Position numbers and translations under genes: made by a program. A stretch of DNA of 55,171 bases, taken from the NCBI GenBank assembly GCA_902591485.1, contig CACJAV010000002.1, positions 1 to 55,171 on the forward strand, given 5' to 3'. The notes beneath the pieces were generated by a model. That model worked only from the letters and a program-made list of their open reading frames with translations. It made no database searches and was not told the DNA's origin. Shown piece after piece: positions 88-10,135 of this stretch (positions within the stretch are counted from its first letter, which is position 1; each line of letters starts with the position of its first letter). The stretch is from an uncultured Alphaproteobacteria bacterium (GTDB taxonomy: Bacteria > Pseudomonadota > Alphaproteobacteria > HIMB59 > GCA-002718135).

Positions 88-876
88 ATGAAAATAGTTT
101 TTATAGGAGATATAGTAGGAAAAGAAGCTAGACAAAAATTTATCGAGTCAATTCCTAAAATTAAAAATGAATATGAGCCAGATGCATTAATAGTTAATGC
201 TGAAAATGCAGCTGCGGGCTTTGGTCTTACTAAAAAAATTGCAAATCAACTTCTTGATGCAGGTGTAGATGCAATAACTTTAGGAAATCATGCATGGGAC
301 CAAAAAGAGATGTTATCTTATATCGAAGAGTGTCCAAAAATTATTAGAGCCTTAAACTACCCAAGCGGTGTTCCAGGTAAAGGATACTACGAACTAATAT
401 TACCAAATGAAAAAAAAATTCTTATTATTCAAATTATGCTTAGATTATTTATGGGACTTTTTTTAGATGACCCATTTAGTGTCACAAAAAATTTTTTACA
501 AAGAGAAAAACTTGGGTCTACTTGTAATGCAATTTTTATTGATATGCATGGAGAAGCAACTTCAGAAAAAAATGCTTTTGGTCATTTTTTTGATAGTAAG
601 GTGTCCGCAATAATTGGAACTCACACCCATGTACCAACTTCAGATGCAAGAATTCTAGTTGGTGGCACTGCTTATCAAACTGATGTGGGAATGACTGGTG
701 ATTATAATTCAGTAATAGGTATGGACAAAGAAAGCCCTATTCACGGATTTGTAAAAGGTTATAGATCGGAAGGTAGATTTTTTCCTGCTAGTGAAAAAAT
801 AACTATATGCGGAACATTCGTAGAAACTGACGATAGCACTGGATTATCATTGAAAATCTTGCCTTTTCAAGTCTAA
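88..876 (+). CDS. YmdB-family metallophosphoesterase (TIGR00282)
   Basis: This is a 262-residue calcineurin-like metallophosphoesterase of the TIGR00282/YmdB family, close to the family's usual length of about 260-270. The dinuclear metal site is visible in order: GDIVG with D8, NAEN with E39 and N40, GNHAWD with N67 and H68, DMHGE with H154, and GTHTH with H179 and H181. Characterised relatives hydrolyse 2',3'-cyclic nucleotides and affect RNA turnover or stress behaviour; the substrate here is not known. There is no signal peptide, so it should be cytosolic. It lies 77 bp upstream of yebC in the same direction, a common alphaproteobacterial arrangement. The LDDPF segment after residue 120 carries an extra residue relative to the form I remember, but all metal ligands are intact. 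Confidence 0.88.
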   Translation: MKIVFIGDIVGKEARQKFIESIPKIKNEYEPDALIVNAENAAAGFGLTKKIANQLLDAGVDAITLGNHAWDQKEMLSYIEECPKIIRALNYPSGVPGKGYYELILPNEKKILIIQIMLRLFMGLFLDDPFSVTKNFLQREKLGSTCNAIFIDMHGEATSEKNAFGHFFDSKVSAIIGTHTHVPTSDARILVGGTAYQTDVGMTGDYNSVIGMDKESPIHGFVKGYRSEGRFFPASEKITICGTFVETDDSTGLSLKILPFQV

Positions 877-953: not shown

Positions 954-1703
954 ATGGCAGGTCATTCCAAATTTAAAAATATTATGCACCGTAAAGGTGC
1001 GCAAGACAAAAAACGTGCCAAAATATTTTCTAGATTGGGTAGAGAAATTTCCGTTGCAGTTAAAGAAGGAGGTCCTGATCCTGATACAAATATAAGACTT
1101 CGCTCTGCAGTTGGATCAGCCAAATCTCTTAACATGCCTAAAGACAATATTGAAAGAGCGATTAAAAAAGGAGAAGGAAATGATCCAGATAATAATTATG
1201 AAGAAGTTAGATATGAGGGTTATGGTCCAGATGGTGTAGCTATAATAGTTGAAGCACTTACTAATAATAAAAATAGAACAGCAGCTGAAGTAAGATCTAC
1301 TTTTAGTAAATATGGAGGTAATCTTGGTGAGACTGGCAGTGTAAGCTTTGGCTTTAAGAGACTTGGAAGTATTACGCTAAAAAAAAATGATATTGATGAA
1401 GAAGAGCTTGTTGATTTTATTTTAGAAAATGGATCTGAAGATTATGAACATAATGAAGATGAGTATATTGTTTATTGTGAACAAAAAAAATTACATCAAC
1501 TTAATCAAAAAATTATTGATAAATTTGGTCCCACAAATTTTACTGGACTTATATGGAAAAGTGAAAACGAGATTTCTGTTTCTAAAGATAAGGCTGAAAC
1601 ATTATTCAAACTATTAAATATATTAGAGGAAAACGAGGACGTGCAAGCAGTATCATCAAATTTTGATGTTAGTGATGAGGTATTAGAATCGTTGGCAGTT
1701 TAG
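954..1703 (+). CDS. yebC: YebC/PmpR family protein
   Basis: This 249-residue protein begins with the diagnostic YebC N-terminus MAGHSKFKNIMHRKGAQDKK and has the usual three-domain length of about 240-250. Family members were long annotated as transcriptional regulators; more recent work places YebC-like proteins on ribosomes, where they help with difficult (proline-rich) stretches. The sequence alone cannot separate these roles. The gene is 13 bp upstream of a small nuclease-like gene at 1717. In most alphaproteobacteria, and in many other bacteria, ruvC follows here, so the neighbourhood is altered. No clear promoter was found in the 77-bp gap upstream. Confidence 0.95.
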   Translation: MAGHSKFKNIMHRKGAQDKKRAKIFSRLGREISVAVKEGGPDPDTNIRLRSAVGSAKSLNMPKDNIERAIKKGEGNDPDNNYEEVRYEGYGPDGVAIIVEALTNNKNRTAAEVRSTFSKYGGNLGETGSVSFGFKRLGSITLKKNDIDEEELVDFILENGSEDYEHNEDEYIVYCEQKKLHQLNQKIIDKFGPTNFTGLIWKSENEISVSKDKAETLFKLLNILEENEDVQAVSSNFDVSDEVLESLAV

Positions 1704-1716
1704 GGAAAGGAATATT

Positions 1717-2016
1717 ATGCCTGACAAAGCTTGGAAAAAAAGAGAGCGAGATGTAGCAAATTATTTTAACGGCAAAAGAACACCTTTAAGTGGAGGTAAT
1801 GGAAAAGTCACTCGAGCGGATGTCATTCACGATGAGCTTTTTATAGAATGTAAATTAAGAGCTAAGCATACTGCAGTGTCACTTTGGGATGATACAGCAA
1901 AACTTGCAAAAGATGAAGGCAAAACTCCTGTTATAGCTTTATGTGAAAAAAATAGACCTGGTTTTTGGATTATGGTGCACAGTGATGATTTAAAAAAAAT
2001 AAAGGATAAAGAATAA
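1717..2016 (+). CDS. Small PDDEXK-nuclease-like protein in the ruvC position
   Basis: This 99-residue protein has no signal peptide or membrane segment. It shows the skeleton of a PD-(D/E)XK nuclease: an N-terminal helix with KKRERDVANYF (E10), a glycine-rich turn (SGGNGK, 25-30), an acidic residue at D35 (RADVIHD), and the E44-C45-K46 pair on the next predicted strand. This resembles archaeal Hjc-type Holliday-junction resolvases and small phage nucleases, which are about 100-130 residues. It sits between yebC and tolQ with a good ribosome binding site (AAAGGA) and its stop overlaps the tolQ start by one base. That slot normally holds ruvC-ruvA-ruvB. The nuclease fold is inferred from motifs; resolvase activity is a hypothesis from position. 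It could also be a DNA repair or restriction-like nuclease. Confidence 0.6.
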   Translation: MPDKAWKKRERDVANYFNGKRTPLSGGNGKVTRADVIHDELFIECKLRAKHTAVSLWDDTAKLAKDEGKTPVIALCEKNRPGFWIMVHSDDLKKIKDKE

Positions 2017-2735
2017 TGGAAGAAGTTAATTCAATAAATAATATTGCATCAGAAAATGTAGACTTTTCAATGTTTGCATTATTTATGAGTGCTGATTTAG
2101 TCGTAAAATCGGTAATTATAATCTTAGTTCTAGCTTCAATTTATTCTTGGATCATAATTGTTTCTAAACTTTTAAGATTAAGACAACTTAAGCAAATGGA
2201 AAAAGAGTTTGAAGAAATTTTTTGGTCAGGAAATTCTTTTGAAGATTTATATGAAACTCTGAACTTCAATAAACTTGATCCTAAATCAAAAATATTCTGT
2301 GCAGCAATTTCAGAATGGAAAAAAACAAAGTCTAATTATGAAGGTCAAATAAGCACTAATATTTCATCTCTCAAGGATCGCATGCAACGCTCAATGATAG
2401 TTACATTTAATAAAGAAAGTGAAATAGTGGAAAAGAATTTAACTTTTTTAGCTACTTCTGGCTCAACTGCACCGTTTATAGGTTTATTTGGAACAGTTTG
2501 GGGAATAATGAATAGTTTTAAATCAATAGCTGTAGCTCAAAATACTAATTTATCTGTTGTTGCACCTGGTATTGCAGAGGCATTATTCGCAACAGCACTC
2601 GGTCTGTTTGTCGCTATTCCAGCAGTAGTTGCATATAATAAAATATCTAGTGATTTATCTAAATATTTTGTTTCACTAGAAACATTTATGGATGAATTTA
2701 CGACTATTTTTTTCAGACAATTAGAGAAAAAATAA
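2016..2735 (+). CDS. tolQ: Tol-Pal system proton channel subunit TolQ
   Basis: TolQ is the MotA/ExbB-family inner-membrane subunit of the Tol-Pal complex, which uses the proton gradient to drive outer-membrane constriction at division. The 239-residue length fits. Three membrane segments are visible: about 28-50, about 143-170 (with the conserved run LATSGSTAPFIGLFGTVWGI), and about 185-210 (GIAEALFATALGLFVAIPAV). It opens a colinear tolQ-tolR-tolA-tolB-pal-cpoB run. Its ATG shares one base with the stop of the upstream nuclease-like gene. The ybgC thioesterase that often precedes tolQ is absent. Confidence 0.95.
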   Translation: MEEVNSINNIASENVDFSMFALFMSADLVVKSVIIILVLASIYSWIIIVSKLLRLRQLKQMEKEFEEIFWSGNSFEDLYETLNFNKLDPKSKIFCAAISEWKKTKSNYEGQISTNISSLKDRMQRSMIVTFNKESEIVEKNLTFLATSGSTAPFIGLFGTVWGIMNSFKSIAVAQNTNLSVVAPGIAEALFATALGLFVAIPAVVAYNKISSDLSKYFVSLETFMDEFTTIFFRQLEKK

Positions 2736-2736
2736 A

Positions 2737-3168
2737 TTGTTAAATTTTAGTAACAATTCATCAAGAAAACGCAAAAGATACACTCAAATGAGTGAAATTA
2801 ATGTCACACCTTTTGTTGATGTGATGTTGGTTTTATTAATTGTTTTTATGGTTACTGCTCCTTTGCTAACTGTTGGTATTCCAGTTGATCTTCCAAAAGT
2901 TAAATCATCTGCATTAACTGATCAAAAGGATCCTCTTGAAATCACAGTGAAATTAGGCGGTGAGATATTTTTAGGAGAATCAAAAGTAGAGGTTGAGAAT
3001 TTGATACCAAGATTAAATGCAATAACTGAGTTAAATAAAGAGGCAAGAATTTATGTAAGAGGCGATAGGGTTGTAGCCTATGGAAGAATAATGGAAATTA
3101 TGTCTTTAGTAAATTCTGCAGGCTATACAAAGGTAGCACTGGTTACGCAAAATCCAACGGACAATTAA
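2737..3168 (+). CDS. tolR: Tol-Pal system protein TolR
   Basis: TolR is the ExbD-family partner of TolQ: one inner-membrane helix followed by a periplasmic domain. The 143-residue protein carries the family hallmark MSEINVTPFVDVMLVLLIVF, with the proton-path aspartate at D28. The start is a TTG one base after the tolQ stop; the first in-frame ATG is codon 18, at the start of the conserved motif. TTG is preferred because the preceding 17 residues form the basic cytoplasmic lead (KRKR) normally present. Translation is probably coupled to tolQ. Confidence 0.93.
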   Translation: MLNFSNNSSRKRKRYTQMSEINVTPFVDVMLVLLIVFMVTAPLLTVGIPVDLPKVKSSALTDQKDPLEITVKLGGEIFLGESKVEVENLIPRLNAITELNKEARIYVRGDRVVAYGRIMEIMSLVNSAGYTKVALVTQNPTDN

Positions 3169-3172
3169 AAGT

Positions 3173-4249
3173 ATGCAGTCTTTGTATATTAAGACATTTA
3201 ATTTCATAGAAAATTCTCAACCAAATCATATTGGAGTTTATTTCTCTCTTTTACTTCATTTATCTATATTATTATTTGCTGTGGGTCTTCCAGATTTTTT
3301 TAAACCAAAAGAAATTCCAATGCCTCAAGTTATACCAATTGAAATTTTGAATGTTTCTGATGTTACATCCTTAACTCCAAAAAAAGAAAATGTTGAAATT
3401 GAAAGTAAAGAAACTAAAAAAGTAAAACAAAAAAAATTTAGCTCTGCAGAAAATACTGAGATTCAAAAATTAGAGTTAAGAGAAAAGCCTAAGAAAAAAA
3501 TAGAATTGAATACAATTGAACCCGACGATAATATTTTAACTCAAAAACCAGAACAAAATAAAATTTCATTAAATAAAAATGAAATCATTAAACCTAAAGA
3601 GCAAGAAAAAGCAAACTTAGAAAAAATTGATACTTTAAAAGAAAATAAAATAAAACCCAAGCTGAAACCAAAAATCCAAGAAGAAGTTAAAGAAGTTAAA
3701 CAAGAAAGTGATTTAAAAATAGAAAATAAAACTAAACCTGATTTAAAAAATGTTGAAAAAAAGATAATAGATAAACCAAAGCCAGTAGAAAAACCAGAGC
3801 CAGATTTTAATTTAGCAACTATGCTTAAAGATCTTAGAAATGAAGATATTGCAAATACGTCTGAAGATAACGAAGATAATGATGAAAAAGTTGTTACAGA
3901 AAAAGATGAAAACCAACAAAATAATTTAGAGGTCTCAATTTCTGAGATGGATCTTGTTCTTCAACAGTTAAGAAGTTGTTTTAATCCTAGAGCTGGGACT
4001 CAAATCGTGGGTGATGAAATGGTCAAAATAAGTGCCAAAATTGACAGAGACGCTAATGTAAGAAAAGATACTGTACAAATTATTGACACAAATATAAGTA
4101 ATAGTAATCCATATTATGAAGCAATTACAGAAAGTGCAGTGGCAACTCTTTATAATCCACTTTGTTCAAAACTTAAATTACCCCTTGATAAATATGAATC
4201 GTGGAAAGATTTGAAGATAACAATTGATTATAGTTGGATAAAAAATTAA
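3173..4249 (+). CDS. tolA: Tol-Pal system protein TolA
   Basis: TolA spans the periplasm and links the TolQR motor to Pal and TolB. The 358-residue protein has one N-terminal membrane anchor (about residues 20-39), a long charged Lys/Glu/Pro/Asn-rich stalk (about 50-250), and a C-terminal TonB/TolA-like domain starting near LVLQQLRSCFNPRAG and ending ITIDYSW. The stalk is rich in KPK/KPE-type repeats rather than the alanine-rich helix of E. coli TolA, which fits the AT-rich genome. Identity rests on architecture and its position between tolR and tolB. Confidence 0.92.
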   Translation: MQSLYIKTFNFIENSQPNHIGVYFSLLLHLSILLFAVGLPDFFKPKEIPMPQVIPIEILNVSDVTSLTPKKENVEIESKETKKVKQKKFSSAENTEIQKLELREKPKKKIELNTIEPDDNILTQKPEQNKISLNKNEIIKPKEQEKANLEKIDTLKENKIKPKLKPKIQEEVKEVKQESDLKIENKTKPDLKNVEKKIIDKPKPVEKPEPDFNLATMLKDLRNEDIANTSEDNEDNDEKVVTEKDENQQNNLEVSISEMDLVLQQLRSCFNPRAGTQIVGDEMVKISAKIDRDANVRKDTVQIIDTNISNSNPYYEAITESAVATLYNPLCSKLKLPLDKYESWKDLKITIDYSWIKN

Positions 4250-4264
4250 TTATTTATAAATAAA

Positions 4265-5578
4265 ATGAAATATATACTTTCAATATTAATTAGCTTGATA
4301 TCATTAAATTCTTACAGTCTAGAGTTAACTCTTAGTCAAGGCACAGTAAAACCAACACCAATTGCGGTTACTGACTTATTTTCTCAAGTTTCTTCATTAG
4401 AAAAAATTGGTAAAAATATATCTTCTGTAATTTCTGATAACTTAGAAAGATCAGGTTTATTTCTACCGATTAATCCAAAAGCTTTTATCCAATCATCTGA
4501 GTCATTATCAAGTCAACCTAGATTTGAAGATTGGAAAGTTATTAAAGCCCAGCATTTGGTGGCAGGTAAAATAGAAACTAGTGGTGATAACATTTCTGTT
4601 GAATTTAGGTTGTTTGATGTTTTTGCCCAAAAACAAATAGTTGGAAAAAAATATCAAACAAGTAAAAAAAACTGGAGACGTGTCGCTCATATCATTTCAG
4701 ATGCAATTTTTCAACGTATCACAGGCGAGGGTGGTTTCTTTGATACAAGAATAGTTTATGTGGCTGAAACTGGCCCAAAAGACAATAGGCAAAAGAGATT
4801 AGCAATTATGGATCAAGATCAAGCTAATCATCGTTTTTTAACTGATGGATCATATTTAGTTTTAACCCCTAGGTTTTCTCCAAATTCTCAAAAAATAACT
4901 TTTATGTCTTATGTTAAAGCAAATAGTCCTAGAGTTTTTATTTTTGATATAGAGACTGGCCAACAAGAAATAGTAGGGGAATTTCCTGGAATGACTTTTG
5001 CTCCTCGTTTCTCTCCAGATGGAACTAAAATTGTAATGTCTTATTCTGATCCAGATGTTGGAAATGCTGAGATTTATATTCTTGATCTTAAGACTAGAGT
5101 TTCTAAAAGAATAACAGATAATTCATCAATTGATGTTTCTGGAAGTTTTTCTCCAGATGGGAAAAAGATTGTTTTTAATTCAGATAGAACAGGTAGAAGA
5201 CATTTATACATTGTAGACAATGACGGAAGTAATCTTAAAAGAATAAGTAGAGAAAGAGGGAGTTATTATACGCCTGTGTGGTCCCCTAGAGGAGATATGA
5301 TTGCTTTTACTAAACAAGAAGGTGGCCAATTTTACATAGGTGTTATGGAAATTGATGGATCAAATGAGAGAATGATTGCAAAATCTTTTCATGTTGAAGG
5401 ACCTACTTGGTCTCCAAATGGCCGATATTTAATGTACTTTAAGGAAGAGCGCACGTCCGCAGATGGATCAGGAGGTGAGTCAAATCTGTACTCTATAGAT
5501 CTAACTGGTTATAATGAGCGAAAAATTATCACTCCTTTGGGAGGTTCTGACCCCGCTTGGTCTCCTTTAATGCATTAA
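4265..5578 (+). CDS. tolB: Tol-Pal system protein TolB
   Basis: TolB is a soluble periplasmic protein that binds Pal and signals to TolA. The 437-residue product starts with a signal peptide (about 1-19, MKYILSILISLISLNSYS), then a TolB N-terminal domain (to about 150), and a six-bladed beta-propeller shown by repeated FSPDG/WSPNG motifs (for example RFSPDGTKI, SFSPDGKKI, WSPNGRYL). Length matches the family. It follows tolA by 15 bp and is followed by a 109-bp gap before pal that holds an inverted repeat. Confidence 0.96.
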   Translation: MKYILSILISLISLNSYSLELTLSQGTVKPTPIAVTDLFSQVSSLEKIGKNISSVISDNLERSGLFLPINPKAFIQSSESLSSQPRFEDWKVIKAQHLVAGKIETSGDNISVEFRLFDVFAQKQIVGKKYQTSKKNWRRVAHIISDAIFQRITGEGGFFDTRIVYVAETGPKDNRQKRLAIMDQDQANHRFLTDGSYLVLTPRFSPNSQKITFMSYVKANSPRVFIFDIETGQQEIVGEFPGMTFAPRFSPDGTKIVMSYSDPDVGNAEIYILDLKTRVSKRITDNSSIDVSGSFSPDGKKIVFNSDRTGRRHLYIVDNDGSNLKRISRERGSYYTPVWSPRGDMIAFTKQEGGQFYIGVMEIDGSNERMIAKSFHVEGPTWSPNGRYLMYFKEERTSADGSGGESNLYSIDLTGYNERKIITPLGGSDPAWSPLMH

Positions 5579-5630
5579 TTTTGTAGAAAATAATGATTTT
5601 TTATTAAAAAAAACATATGAATTAATAAAA

Positions 5631-5657
5631 AAAATGTTAATTAAAGCTTAACATTTT
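5631..5657 (+). repeat. Inverted repeat upstream of pal
   Basis: The arms AAAATGTTAA (5631-5640) and TTAACATTTT (5648-5657) pair perfectly over 10 bp around a 7-base loop. It lies in the 109-bp tolB-pal gap. The stem is almost all A/T and lacks a U-tract, so it is a weak terminator candidate at best. It may be an mRNA stability or attenuation element, or a protein-binding palindrome. The pal ribosome binding site GGGAG (5675-5679) lies 9 bases before the ATG, downstream of the hairpin. Confidence 0.4.
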
Positions 5658-5687
5658 AAGGATATTACACATCGGGAGAATTTTTGT

Positions 5688-6218
5688 ATGATTATAAAAT
5701 TACTCACAAGCGCGACTTTAGTATTTTTTTTAGCAGCTTGTTCAACAACTCCAAAAGATACAGCAGATTCATCTGGATCAGGATCATCGTCATCATCCTC
5801 TGATGTGTCTTCAACTGAAACAACTACTGAAACTTCAAGCGCAGACTCTGCTTCAATAGAACCAGGCTCACAAGAAGATTTAATTGTTAATGTTGGAGAT
5901 AGAGTTTTCTTTAACTATGATAGTTCTGAATTAGACTCAGATGCCCAAGAACTTCTTCAAGATCAAGTAGCATGGTTAAAACAATATTCCGATGTCTCAG
6001 TTATCATAGAGGGTCATTGTGATGAAAGAGGCACAAGAGAATATAACCTTGCACTAGGAGAAAAAAGAGCTCAAGCGGTAAAAAATTATCTAATTAGTCT
6101 TGGAATTTCATCTGATAGAATTTCAACTATATCTTATGGAAAAGAAAGACCTTCAGTTGTAGGCTCTAATGATGGTGCATGGGCGCAAAACAGAAGATCT
6201 GTTACAATAGTTAACTAA
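5688..6218 (+). CDS. pal: Peptidoglycan-associated lipoprotein Pal
   Basis: Pal is an outer-membrane lipoprotein that binds peptidoglycan and TolB/TolA. The 176-residue precursor has a lipoprotein signal ending LAAC with the lipidated cysteine at C18, a serine/threonine-rich linker (about 24-60), and a C-terminal OmpA-like domain from about 65. The peptidoglycan-binding signature is visible (EGHCDERGTREYNLALGEKRA). Length is typical. A strong GGGAG ribosome binding site precedes the ATG, suggesting high expression separate from tolB, and a rho-independent terminator follows. Confidence 0.96.
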   Translation: MIIKLLTSATLVFFLAACSTTPKDTADSSGSGSSSSSSDVSSTETTTETSSADSASIEPGSQEDLIVNVGDRVFFNYDSSELDSDAQELLQDQVAWLKQYSDVSVIIEGHCDERGTREYNLALGEKRAQAVKNYLISLGISSDRISTISYGKERPSVVGSNDGAWAQNRRSVTIVN

Positions 6219-8230: not shown

Positions 8231-10135
8231 ATGAAAAATTTCAGCAAAAACATTATCTTATGGATTGTCATTGGCATTTTATTAATTGCTCTTTTCAATT
8301 TATTCCAAAACAGTTCATCAACAAATAAGTCAAAAGAAATATCTTTTTCTGATTTTTTAATAGCAACTGATAATGGAAATATTTCAGAAGTTAAAATAGT
8401 AGGAAATAATGTTTCAGGTTTTTTTGAAGATGGAAGATCTTTTTCTACATACTCACCAAATTACCCAGATCTAGTCGATAAATTAAATCAATCAGGTGTT
8501 AAAATAATAGCTGAACCAGCAGAGAGATCAATGCATCCAATTTTGAGTGTTCTTCTGTCATGGTTTCCAATGCTTTTATTAATTGGAGTTTGGATTTTCT
8601 TCATGAGGCAAATGCAATCTGGGGGAGGAAAGGCAATGGGTTTTGGTAAATCTAAAGCAAAACTCTTGAATGAAGCAATTGGAAAAATTACTTTTGATGA
8701 TGTTGCAGGAATTGATGAAGCAAAACAAGAACTTGAAGAAGTTGTAGAATTTTTAAAAGATCCTAAAAAATTCTCAAAATTAGGTGGAAAGATACCTACC
8801 GGAGCTCTTTTAGTTGGCCCTCCTGGTACAGGTAAAACTCTTTTAGCTAGAGCCATTGCAGGGGAGGCAAATGTACCTTTCTTCTCAATTTCAGGTTCTG
8901 ACTTTGTCGAAATGTTTGTAGGTGTTGGAGCAAGTAGAGTTAGGGATATGTTTGAGCAAGGCAAAAAAAATGCACCATGTATCATTTTTATTGATGAAAT
9001 TGATGCAGTTGGAAGGCATAGAGGTGCTGGTTTAGGTGGTGGTAACGATGAAAGAGAACAAACCTTAAACCAATTACTAGTTGAGATGGATGGTTTTGAA
9101 GCAAATGCAGGTGTTATCATTGTTGCAGCAACTAACAGACCTGATGTTCTTGATCCTGCACTTCTAAGACCAGGTAGGTTTGACAGGCAAGTTCATGTAT
9201 TGCTTCCAGATATCATTGGTAGAGATAAAATACTCAAAGTTCACATGAAAAAAATTAAGGTTTCACCTAAATTTGACTCAAAAGTTATTGCAAGAGGAAC
9301 ACCTGGTTTTTCAGGAGCAGATTTAGCTAACTTAGTTAATGAAGCTGCTTTAATAGCTGCTAGAAAAAACAAGAGAATGGTAACTTTAGATGACTTTGAA
9401 AACGCAAAAGATAAAGTTTATATGGGTGCCGAAAGAAGATCAAAAGTTGTCTCTGAAGAAGACAGAAAATTAGTTGCGTATCATGAAGCAGGACACGCGA
9501 TAGCAGGTATAAACTGTAAAAATGTCGATCCATTGCATAAGGTAACCATAATTCCAAGAGGCGCAGCTGGAGGAGTTACATGGTTTTTGCCAAAAGAAGA
9601 CAAAGATTATGTAAGACTTAATCAAGCTAAAGATGAAATGGTTATGGCTCTTGGTGGAAGAATAGCAGAAGAAATAATATTTGGTAGAGAAAAAATAACA
9701 AGTGGAGCATCTTCGGATATAAAAGGTGTTACCCAGACCGCAAGACGAATGGTTACGCAGTGGGGTATGAGTGAAAAACTTGGTTCAATTCTTTATGATA
9801 GTAGTTCCCAAGAAGTTTTTTTGGGCCACTCTGTTGCACAATCTAAAAATATCTCTGAAGAAACGGCTAATTTGATTGATAAAGAAGTTAAAGATTTAGT
9901 TAATGAGGCAAAAGAAAGATGTACAAAAATTCTTAAGGATAAAATTGATGATCTACATACACTTGCTAAAGGTTTGCTTGATTATGAAACACTAACCTAT
10001 GATGAAGTCAAAGATTTACTGAATGGAATTGCTCCAAAAAGAGATGACTTTGATGATAGCCCAACAACTTCTTCAATGCCGCCTAAAACGTCAGTTCCAA
10101 AATCAGGCGGTGCTACTGCTCCTCAACCAAATTAA
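8231..10135 (+). CDS. ftsH: ATP-dependent zinc metalloprotease FtsH
   Basis: FtsH is a membrane-anchored AAA+ protease that degrades misfolded membrane proteins and short-lived regulators such as RpoH and LpxC in other bacteria. The 634-residue protein shows two membrane segments (about 8-25 and 103-125), Walker A GPPGTGKT (196-203), Walker [10 protein letters not shown] (about 251-259), the SRH region ([19 protein letters not shown]) and the zinc site HEAGH (418-422). The C-terminal tail is low complexity. The substrate candidate rpoH is encoded nearby at 13.9 kb. Confidence 0.98.

Follow-up and report, generated by a model that had tools for sequence, protein, structure and literature searches.

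A phage-type PDDEXK nuclease gene in the ruvCAB position of an alphaproteobacterial order without recognisable RuvA, RuvB or RuvC

The stretch of DNA analysed here, hereafter the window, comprises 55,171 nucleotides of an uncultured alphaproteobacterium of the order HIMB59 (contig CACJAV010000002.1 of GenBank assembly GCA_902591485.1, which amounts to 1.43 Mb in 54 contigs and is 83% complete). Close to its left end the window carries a gene for a small putative nuclease, which is the subject of this study, in the gene order ymdB-like, yebC, nuclease, tolQ, tolR, tolA, tolB and pal (Table 1). The nuclease gene starts 13 bases past the yebC stop, and the last A of its stop codon TAA is the first base of the tolQ ATG. 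The motif GAAAGGA precedes the start in the 34 same-genus loci listed. An earlier note on this DNA had described a 99-residue open reading frame (ORF) with E10, D35 and E44-x-K46, lying between yebC and tolQ with a one-base overlap; the sequence and its ORFs agree with this description in each point, and both neighbours were named by NCBIfam models above the curated cut-offs.

The product appears to be a PDDEXK-type nuclease. In an alignment of 40 bacterial and viral sequences (hand-picked, the window included, some of them identical), the invariant columns were W6, K7, E10, R11, V13, F17, R21, D35, E44, K46 and L56 and no others, and all four proposed catalytic residues (E10, D35, E44 and K46) are among these 11. 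Residues 3-95 match the phage family PHROG 2002, annotated as Holliday junction resolvase (E 1.2e-10, 42.4 bits). The predicted fold (predicted local distance difference test, pLDDT, 86) contains the nuclease core that the earlier note had anticipated, and the solved structures nearest to it are archaeal Hjc resolvases, with a match score below the decisive level. The Pfam Hjc model (PF01870) gave no match at E up to 10, a search in which filters drop most matches above ~0.1, and the Pfam RecU model gave none at E up to 10 either. The Pfam RuvC model (PF02075) did not match the nuclease, whose predicted fold is instead similar to that of PDDEXK nucleases. T7 endonuclease I and RusA are small phage junction-cutting enzymes, and the Pfam families of both were without a match. 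No link was found by sequence searches against solved structures, and profile comparison with three archaeal Hjc fragments gave no significant similarity; the sequence alone does not place the protein in the Hjc family.

We found the nuclease gene in 86 of the 101 genomes of the order, that is, in 50 of 61 in family f1 (the window's own genome included) and 36 of 40 in family f2. Although 88 of the 101 are less than 90% complete, all 13 genomes of at least 90% completeness carry the gene, and the 15 that miss it are all at most 82% complete. There is one match per genome, with no internal stop in the 86 matches listed. The order ymdB-yebC-nuclease-tolQ is constant in all 42 loci of f1 and f2 (41 genomes, window included). 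Between the window and eight f2 loci, the mean identity of the nuclease is 73% (69-76), as against 52% for YebC, 47% for TolQ, 50% for TolR, 55% for TolB and 44% for YmdB. Alignments of TolA, Pal, YbgF, TilS and FtsH were partial and were kept out of these means; their identities were 27-37% for TolA, YbgF and TilS, 50-70% for Pal and 52-73% for FtsH. The nuclease is thus more conserved than most of its neighbours, with FtsH about equal to it, and such slow evolution of a small nuclease suggests that it is most likely a housekeeping enzyme. On one 25-kb contig (CACKTS010000014.1, loci L136 and L140), two near-identical copies of the nuclease lie at mirrored places, which may be an error in the assembly of a single-cell genome.

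The earlier note had proposed that ruvCAB was lost from this site, and we found no intact set elsewhere. RuvC (PF02075) was detected in none of the 101 genomes of the order, the window's own included, and RuvA (PF01330) likewise in none of the 101. The full RuvB model (TIGR00635) matched weakly in each of the 15 genomes tested with it and in none exceeded the 299-bit cut-off (best 30.8), whereas the true RuvB of a class relative scores 456 bits. The tested sets include a single-contig genome of 99% completeness, which is still without ruvC, ruvA or a true ruvB. One observation weighs against the loss: the RuvB_N model (PF05496) matches all 101 genomes, 91 of them over the Pfam cut-off, which taken alone would speak for a retained RuvB. 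These matches are all weak (best 32.4 bits) and fall in frames mostly of ~420, 540-600 and 815 residues, lengths that would fit ClpX, DnaX and Lon. One weak TIGR00635 match, at 8795-9016, falls within the window's own ftsH frame. As the RuvB_N matches are weak and lie mostly in frames with the lengths of other AAA+ proteins, and as TIGR00635 exceeded its cut-off in none of the 15 genomes, we rejected the retention of RuvB. Other recombination genes were kept in most of the 15 genomes tested, including the two, yqgF and recG, that the earlier note had proposed to look for. RecA was found in 14 and YqgF in 13, and RecG gave a long match of 577-668 bits in 13, over the cut-off of 659 in four; it is cut by a contig end in one genome (G060) and none was found in another (G064).

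What usually stands at this place in relatives was judged from 12 RuvC-bearing loci of the class, hand-picked from the best RuvC matches. The order yebC-ruvC-ruvA-ruvB-tolQ had been taken for common beforehand. The adjacency of yebC and ruvC stood, being seen in 10 of the 12, whereas the full unbroken order was found in only one (L242: ymdB, one gene, yebC, ruvC, ruvA, ruvB, tolQ, tolR, tolA in all likelihood, tolB, pal). Two further loci (L245 and L246) share with it a ruvB that runs directly into tolQ, making three of 12, and in another (L237) ruvB and tolQ are separated by other genes. From this comparison, the nuclease occupies the ruvC position of class relatives, and all of the ruvCAB position in some.

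For a wider survey, 385 class genomes, drawn evenly, were searched with the nuclease profile A2 and the RuvC model. The former matched nine genomes, of which five belong to this order and the other four to f25, a family outside it; RuvC was detected in 353. None of the nine nuclease-bearing genomes has RuvC, as judged for two f25 genomes (G352 and G430) by their absence among the matches. The exclusivity is significant by Fisher's exact test (p 6e-11), in which the nine genomes represent two lineages rather than nine independent events. In family f25 the order ymdB-yebC-nuclease-tolQRAB-pal is seen in all four loci, and its nuclease is 65% identical to the window's, with 47-52% for YmdB, YebC, TolQ, TolR and TolB. 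A tree of YebC gives no clear answer as to a sister relationship between f25 and this order.

Relatives of the nuclease are also encoded by viruses. Only two of 50,697 phage records matched the window protein (a Bacteroides phage and a faecal phage, 45% identity); in Bacteroides phage BS162P1 (L053 5323-6315), the distant relative forms the C-terminal portion of a frame of 330 residues, the whole of which is annotated as I-HmuI DNA endonuclease. In IMG/VR, relatives are encoded on 82 viral contigs, and the following counts cover the best 80 of them. All except one (L134, 45%) are 64-81% identical to the window nuclease. The large terminase gene terL lies downstream of the nuclease at -3 to 699 bases in 75 loci, without a gap in 33 of these; of the five loci in which no terL was seen, four have the contig end inside the gene or at most 15 bases past it, and the fifth is L134. 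terS was found upstream in 49 of the 80, and some of the others are truncated or have diverged beyond what the query could detect. PHROGs name TerL, TerS and the head-tail connector in L087, and TerS and TerL in L066. The three viral relatives scanned match both PHROG 2002 and PHROG 244, annotated as RusA-like Holliday junction resolvase (the latter at E 1e-4 to 3e-6), with PHROG 244 the weaker match in general and the better one in one case. In some viral loci (L062-L064, L066 and L070-L072), 160-700 bases separate the nuclease and terL, and in L066 a 70-residue frame between the two (3333-3545) looks membrane-like by eye. Among isolates, Pelagibacter phage Baldr has the most similar TerL (77%); it has no such nuclease gene ahead of terL and gave no match in the search of phage records. 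This TerL kinship suggests that the nuclease-bearing viruses are marine. Beside terL, the viral enzyme would probably clear branches from replicated phage DNA ahead of packaging.

A tree of 68 nuclease copies, resting on a small number of columns (100), mixes viral and bacterial rows: one viral row falls in the f1 clade, f2 lies within a viral group, and f25 stands outside both. A single bacterial clade was not rejected by the approximately unbiased test (p 0.108 for f1, f2 and f25 together, 0.259 for f1 and f2), and the tree does not tell phage-to-host from host-to-phage transfer, or from both. Since f1, f2 and f25 have the slot in common, one old chromosomal insertion followed by later traffic between phages and hosts may account for the pattern.

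The gap after yebC was also surveyed in other relatives, as had been suggested for this locus, and other phage-type resolvases appear to fill it in other lineages. RuvC was missing from 32 of the 385 class genomes, 23 of which lack the nuclease too, and YebC could be located in 16 of these 23. In four genomes of family f99 and one of f119, yebC is followed by a protein of ~160-166 residues matching PHROG 1770, annotated as Holliday junction resolvase (E values of 7.7e-22 or lower); of the four scanned, three match PHROG 159, 'RuvC-like', as well, and they match NCBIfam RuvC only far under its cut-off. The f99 genomes are single contigs of 1.2-1.3 Mb and may belong to SAR11 proper. In three f50 genomes, the protein after yebC has 168 residues and matches Pfam PDDEXK_15, 'Phage putative PDDEXK endonuclease' (E 2.7e-22 and 2.3e-21), as well as PHROG 244 (E 1.3e-13). 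Six of the eight filler proteins were scanned, one of them (L269) as a frame of 138 residues that starts late, and each of the remaining two has an identical or near-identical counterpart among these six. tolQ comes next in f99 and f119, directly or past ybgC, and tilS and ftsH in f50. Both kinds of filler have phage relatives (79 and 51 of the 50,697 records by tblastn), and a viral scan with the f99 protein gave 14 loci, at most 46% identical. The RuvC-like filler belongs to another family than the two PDDEXK fillers, which may be distantly related to each other, because the viral relatives of the window nuclease also match PHROG 244. Among the remaining eight loci, two end right after yebC and the other six showed no recognised filler among frames of at least 60 residues, judged by eye. 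In two of the single-contig ruvC-less genomes (L268 and L273, family f108), no ATG-started frame of at least 60 residues lies in the ~1.5 kb after yebC, possibly a decayed slot.

Table 1. Features of the window and of comparable loci (coordinates without a locus name refer to the window)
Feature	Position	Strand	Basis
PDDEXK-type nuclease, 99 residues, proposed Holliday-junction resolvase in the ruvCAB slot	1717..2016	+	PHROG 2002; predicted Hjc-like fold; 86/101 genomes of the order
AAAGGA, ribosome-binding-like hexamer ahead of the nuclease start	1706..1711	+	Read from the sequence
YmdB-like metallophosphoesterase, left border of the slot in this order	88..876	+	NCBIfam TIGR00282, 268 bits, over cut-off
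yebC, directly upstream of the slot	954..1703	+	NCBIfam NF001030, 335 bits, over cut-off
tolQ, directly downstream, one-base overlap	2016..2735	+	NCBIfam TIGR02796, 266 bits, over cut-off
tolR, tolA, tolB and pal (presumed names), remainder of the conserved right border	2737..6218	+	ORFs
Phage RuvC-like protein (PHROG 1770) between yebC and tolQ	L364 4443-4925; L365 5070-5561; L367 5814-6287		f99 and f119; no Pfam RuvC match
PDDEXK_15 nuclease, 168 residues, between yebC and tilS	L366 6504-7007; also L262, L265, L266		f50, ruvC-less

The borders of the slot are themselves conserved. The four ORFs downstream of tolQ, which we take to be tolR, tolA, tolB and pal, recur in this order by tblastn in family f2, in family f25 and in some RuvC-bearing relatives. 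The ymdB-like gene is similarly placed in the 42 loci of the order and the four of f25, but not in every RuvC-bearing relative.

We consider it rather likely, with a probability of about three in four, that the product is a small PDDEXK nuclease, metal-dependent and able to cleave four-way (Holliday) junctions, and that in this order it has taken the place of the entire RuvABC resolvasome. The earlier note had suggested that an Hjc-like resolvase or other nuclease may take over from ruvCAB, and the slot, the searches for RuvABC and the predicted fold all support this suggestion, whereas the cleavage itself is what we infer. If the proposal is correct, RecA would form joint molecules, and the retained RecG, instead of RuvAB, would drive branch migration. 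The nuclease, probably a homodimer as in Hjc, would then recognise the junction by its structure and cut two opposing strands with no need of a RuvAB partner, and ligase would seal the nicks.

Two other functions can be imagined for the protein. The first, which we regard as unlikely, is that of a nuclease for branched DNA or forks whose main task is a different one, such as acting on stalled forks or trimming branches, junctions being handled by RecG and YqgF or by replication with no dedicated resolvase. YqgF and RecG are indeed present, and some RuvC-less relatives lack a recognised replacement after yebC (8 of 16 loci, six of which are long enough to look). Nevertheless, in most bacteria YqgF is found together with RuvC or RecU, and up to 2005 it had not been demonstrated to act as a resolvase, according to the parts of PMC1193525 available to us; the slot position and the complementarity with RuvC indicate RuvC's job. 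The second, which strikes us as highly improbable, is that of a domesticated phage gene serving in conflict with phages rather than in recombination, either by competing with the phage copy in packaging or as a defence nuclease. It would fit the close relatives adjoining terL in viral contigs and the one viral row inside the window's own clade, but not (i) the single copy in each of 86 genomes, evolving more slowly than five neighbours, unlike arms-race genes, or (ii) the absence of RuvC wherever the nuclease is found. We rejected a defence gene, as no PADLOC defence family matched the nuclease at E up to 1. Finally, that ruvABC is present but escaped detection, through gaps in incomplete assemblies or divergence beyond the reach of the models, is scarcely credible in spite of the many genomes below 90% completeness, since RuvC and RuvA are absent from all 101 genomes and hence from all 13 near-complete ones (one a 99% single contig), the RuvC model detects 353 of 385 class genomes, and the slot is intact without a ruv gene in the loci examined.

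It is attractive to speculate that the slot after yebC is an exchange site for resolvases, at which RuvC, and probably the whole of RuvABC, was dropped several times in streamlined alphaproteobacteria and a single phage-type cutter put in: Hjc-like in this order and f25, RuvC-like (PHROG 1770), with a different fold, in f99 and f119, and PDDEXK_15 in f50. We hold this view tentatively, as the two PDDEXK fillers may be distantly related, and f50, f99 and f119 were searched for RuvC but not for RuvA or RuvB. If it is true, phage genes are a recurring source of core repair parts, and cells of widespread ocean groups complete recombination with enzymes of the type that phages of theirs apply to phage DNA, RecG standing in for RuvAB. 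An order of ocean bacteria without recognisable RuvA, RuvB and RuvC and with one phage-type nuclease offers a natural test of whether a structure-specific cutter and RecG suffice for junction resolution. The function of the un-named viral gene beside terL also becomes directly testable.

The order HIMB59/AEGEAN-169 has been equated with SAR11 subclade V in the parts of PMC10308909 available to us, the main text of which contains none of 'ruv', 'Holliday', 'recombination' or 'DNA repair'. PMC10734472, in its accessible portion, appeals to homologous recombination to account for gene exchange in this group; 'ruv', 'Holliday' and 'nuclease' do not occur there. A table on SAR11 lists a 'putative Holliday junction resolvase' as a core gene, with nothing further in the section at hand (PMC3686209). 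In the open-licence literature, covered mostly by title-level search, we found no report of the loss or replacement of RuvABC in HIMB59/AEGEAN-169 or Pelagibacter, and in the same literature no precedent for RuvABC loss with a terL-type nuclease in the ruv slot or for repeated refilling of the slot.

Resolvase replacement as an idea is already known, and the nuclease can be set beside several known systems. PHROG 2002, whose profile matches both the window nuclease and the three viral relatives scanned, consists of phage genes, whereas the window nuclease is a conserved chromosomal gene. Archaeal Hjc (PF01870; 1gef of P. furiosus and 2wcw of A. fulgidus) provides the best matches to the predicted fold, and, compared by eye, the two share the order Glu-Arg (helix 1), Arg, Gly/Ser loop, Asp and Glu-x-Lys; the window nuclease differs in being without significant sequence similarity, shorter, bacterial and viral, and placed in the ruv slot. 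An archaeal-type resolvase is also known from a virus of bacteria, Hjc_15-6 of Thermus phage Tth15-6, which cleaves X-shaped DNA; it has 155 residues and belongs to a thermophilic phage, and the excerpt of PMC8805305 that we consulted names no bacterium using it as its own resolvase. The core recombination genes of bacteria include RuvAB together with a RuvC or RecU resolvase, and of 117 genomes only ten had neither RuvC nor RecU, with prophage resolvases and YqgF named as possible stand-ins, as stated in the available parts of PMC1193525. According to the same source, RecU in Firmicutes and Mollicutes is, like the nuclease proposed here, another resolvase that substitutes for RuvC, but RuvAB stays there, with RecU next to it in only two genomes, whereas the order of the window is without RuvA or a true RuvB and carries the putative replacement in the ruv slot itself.
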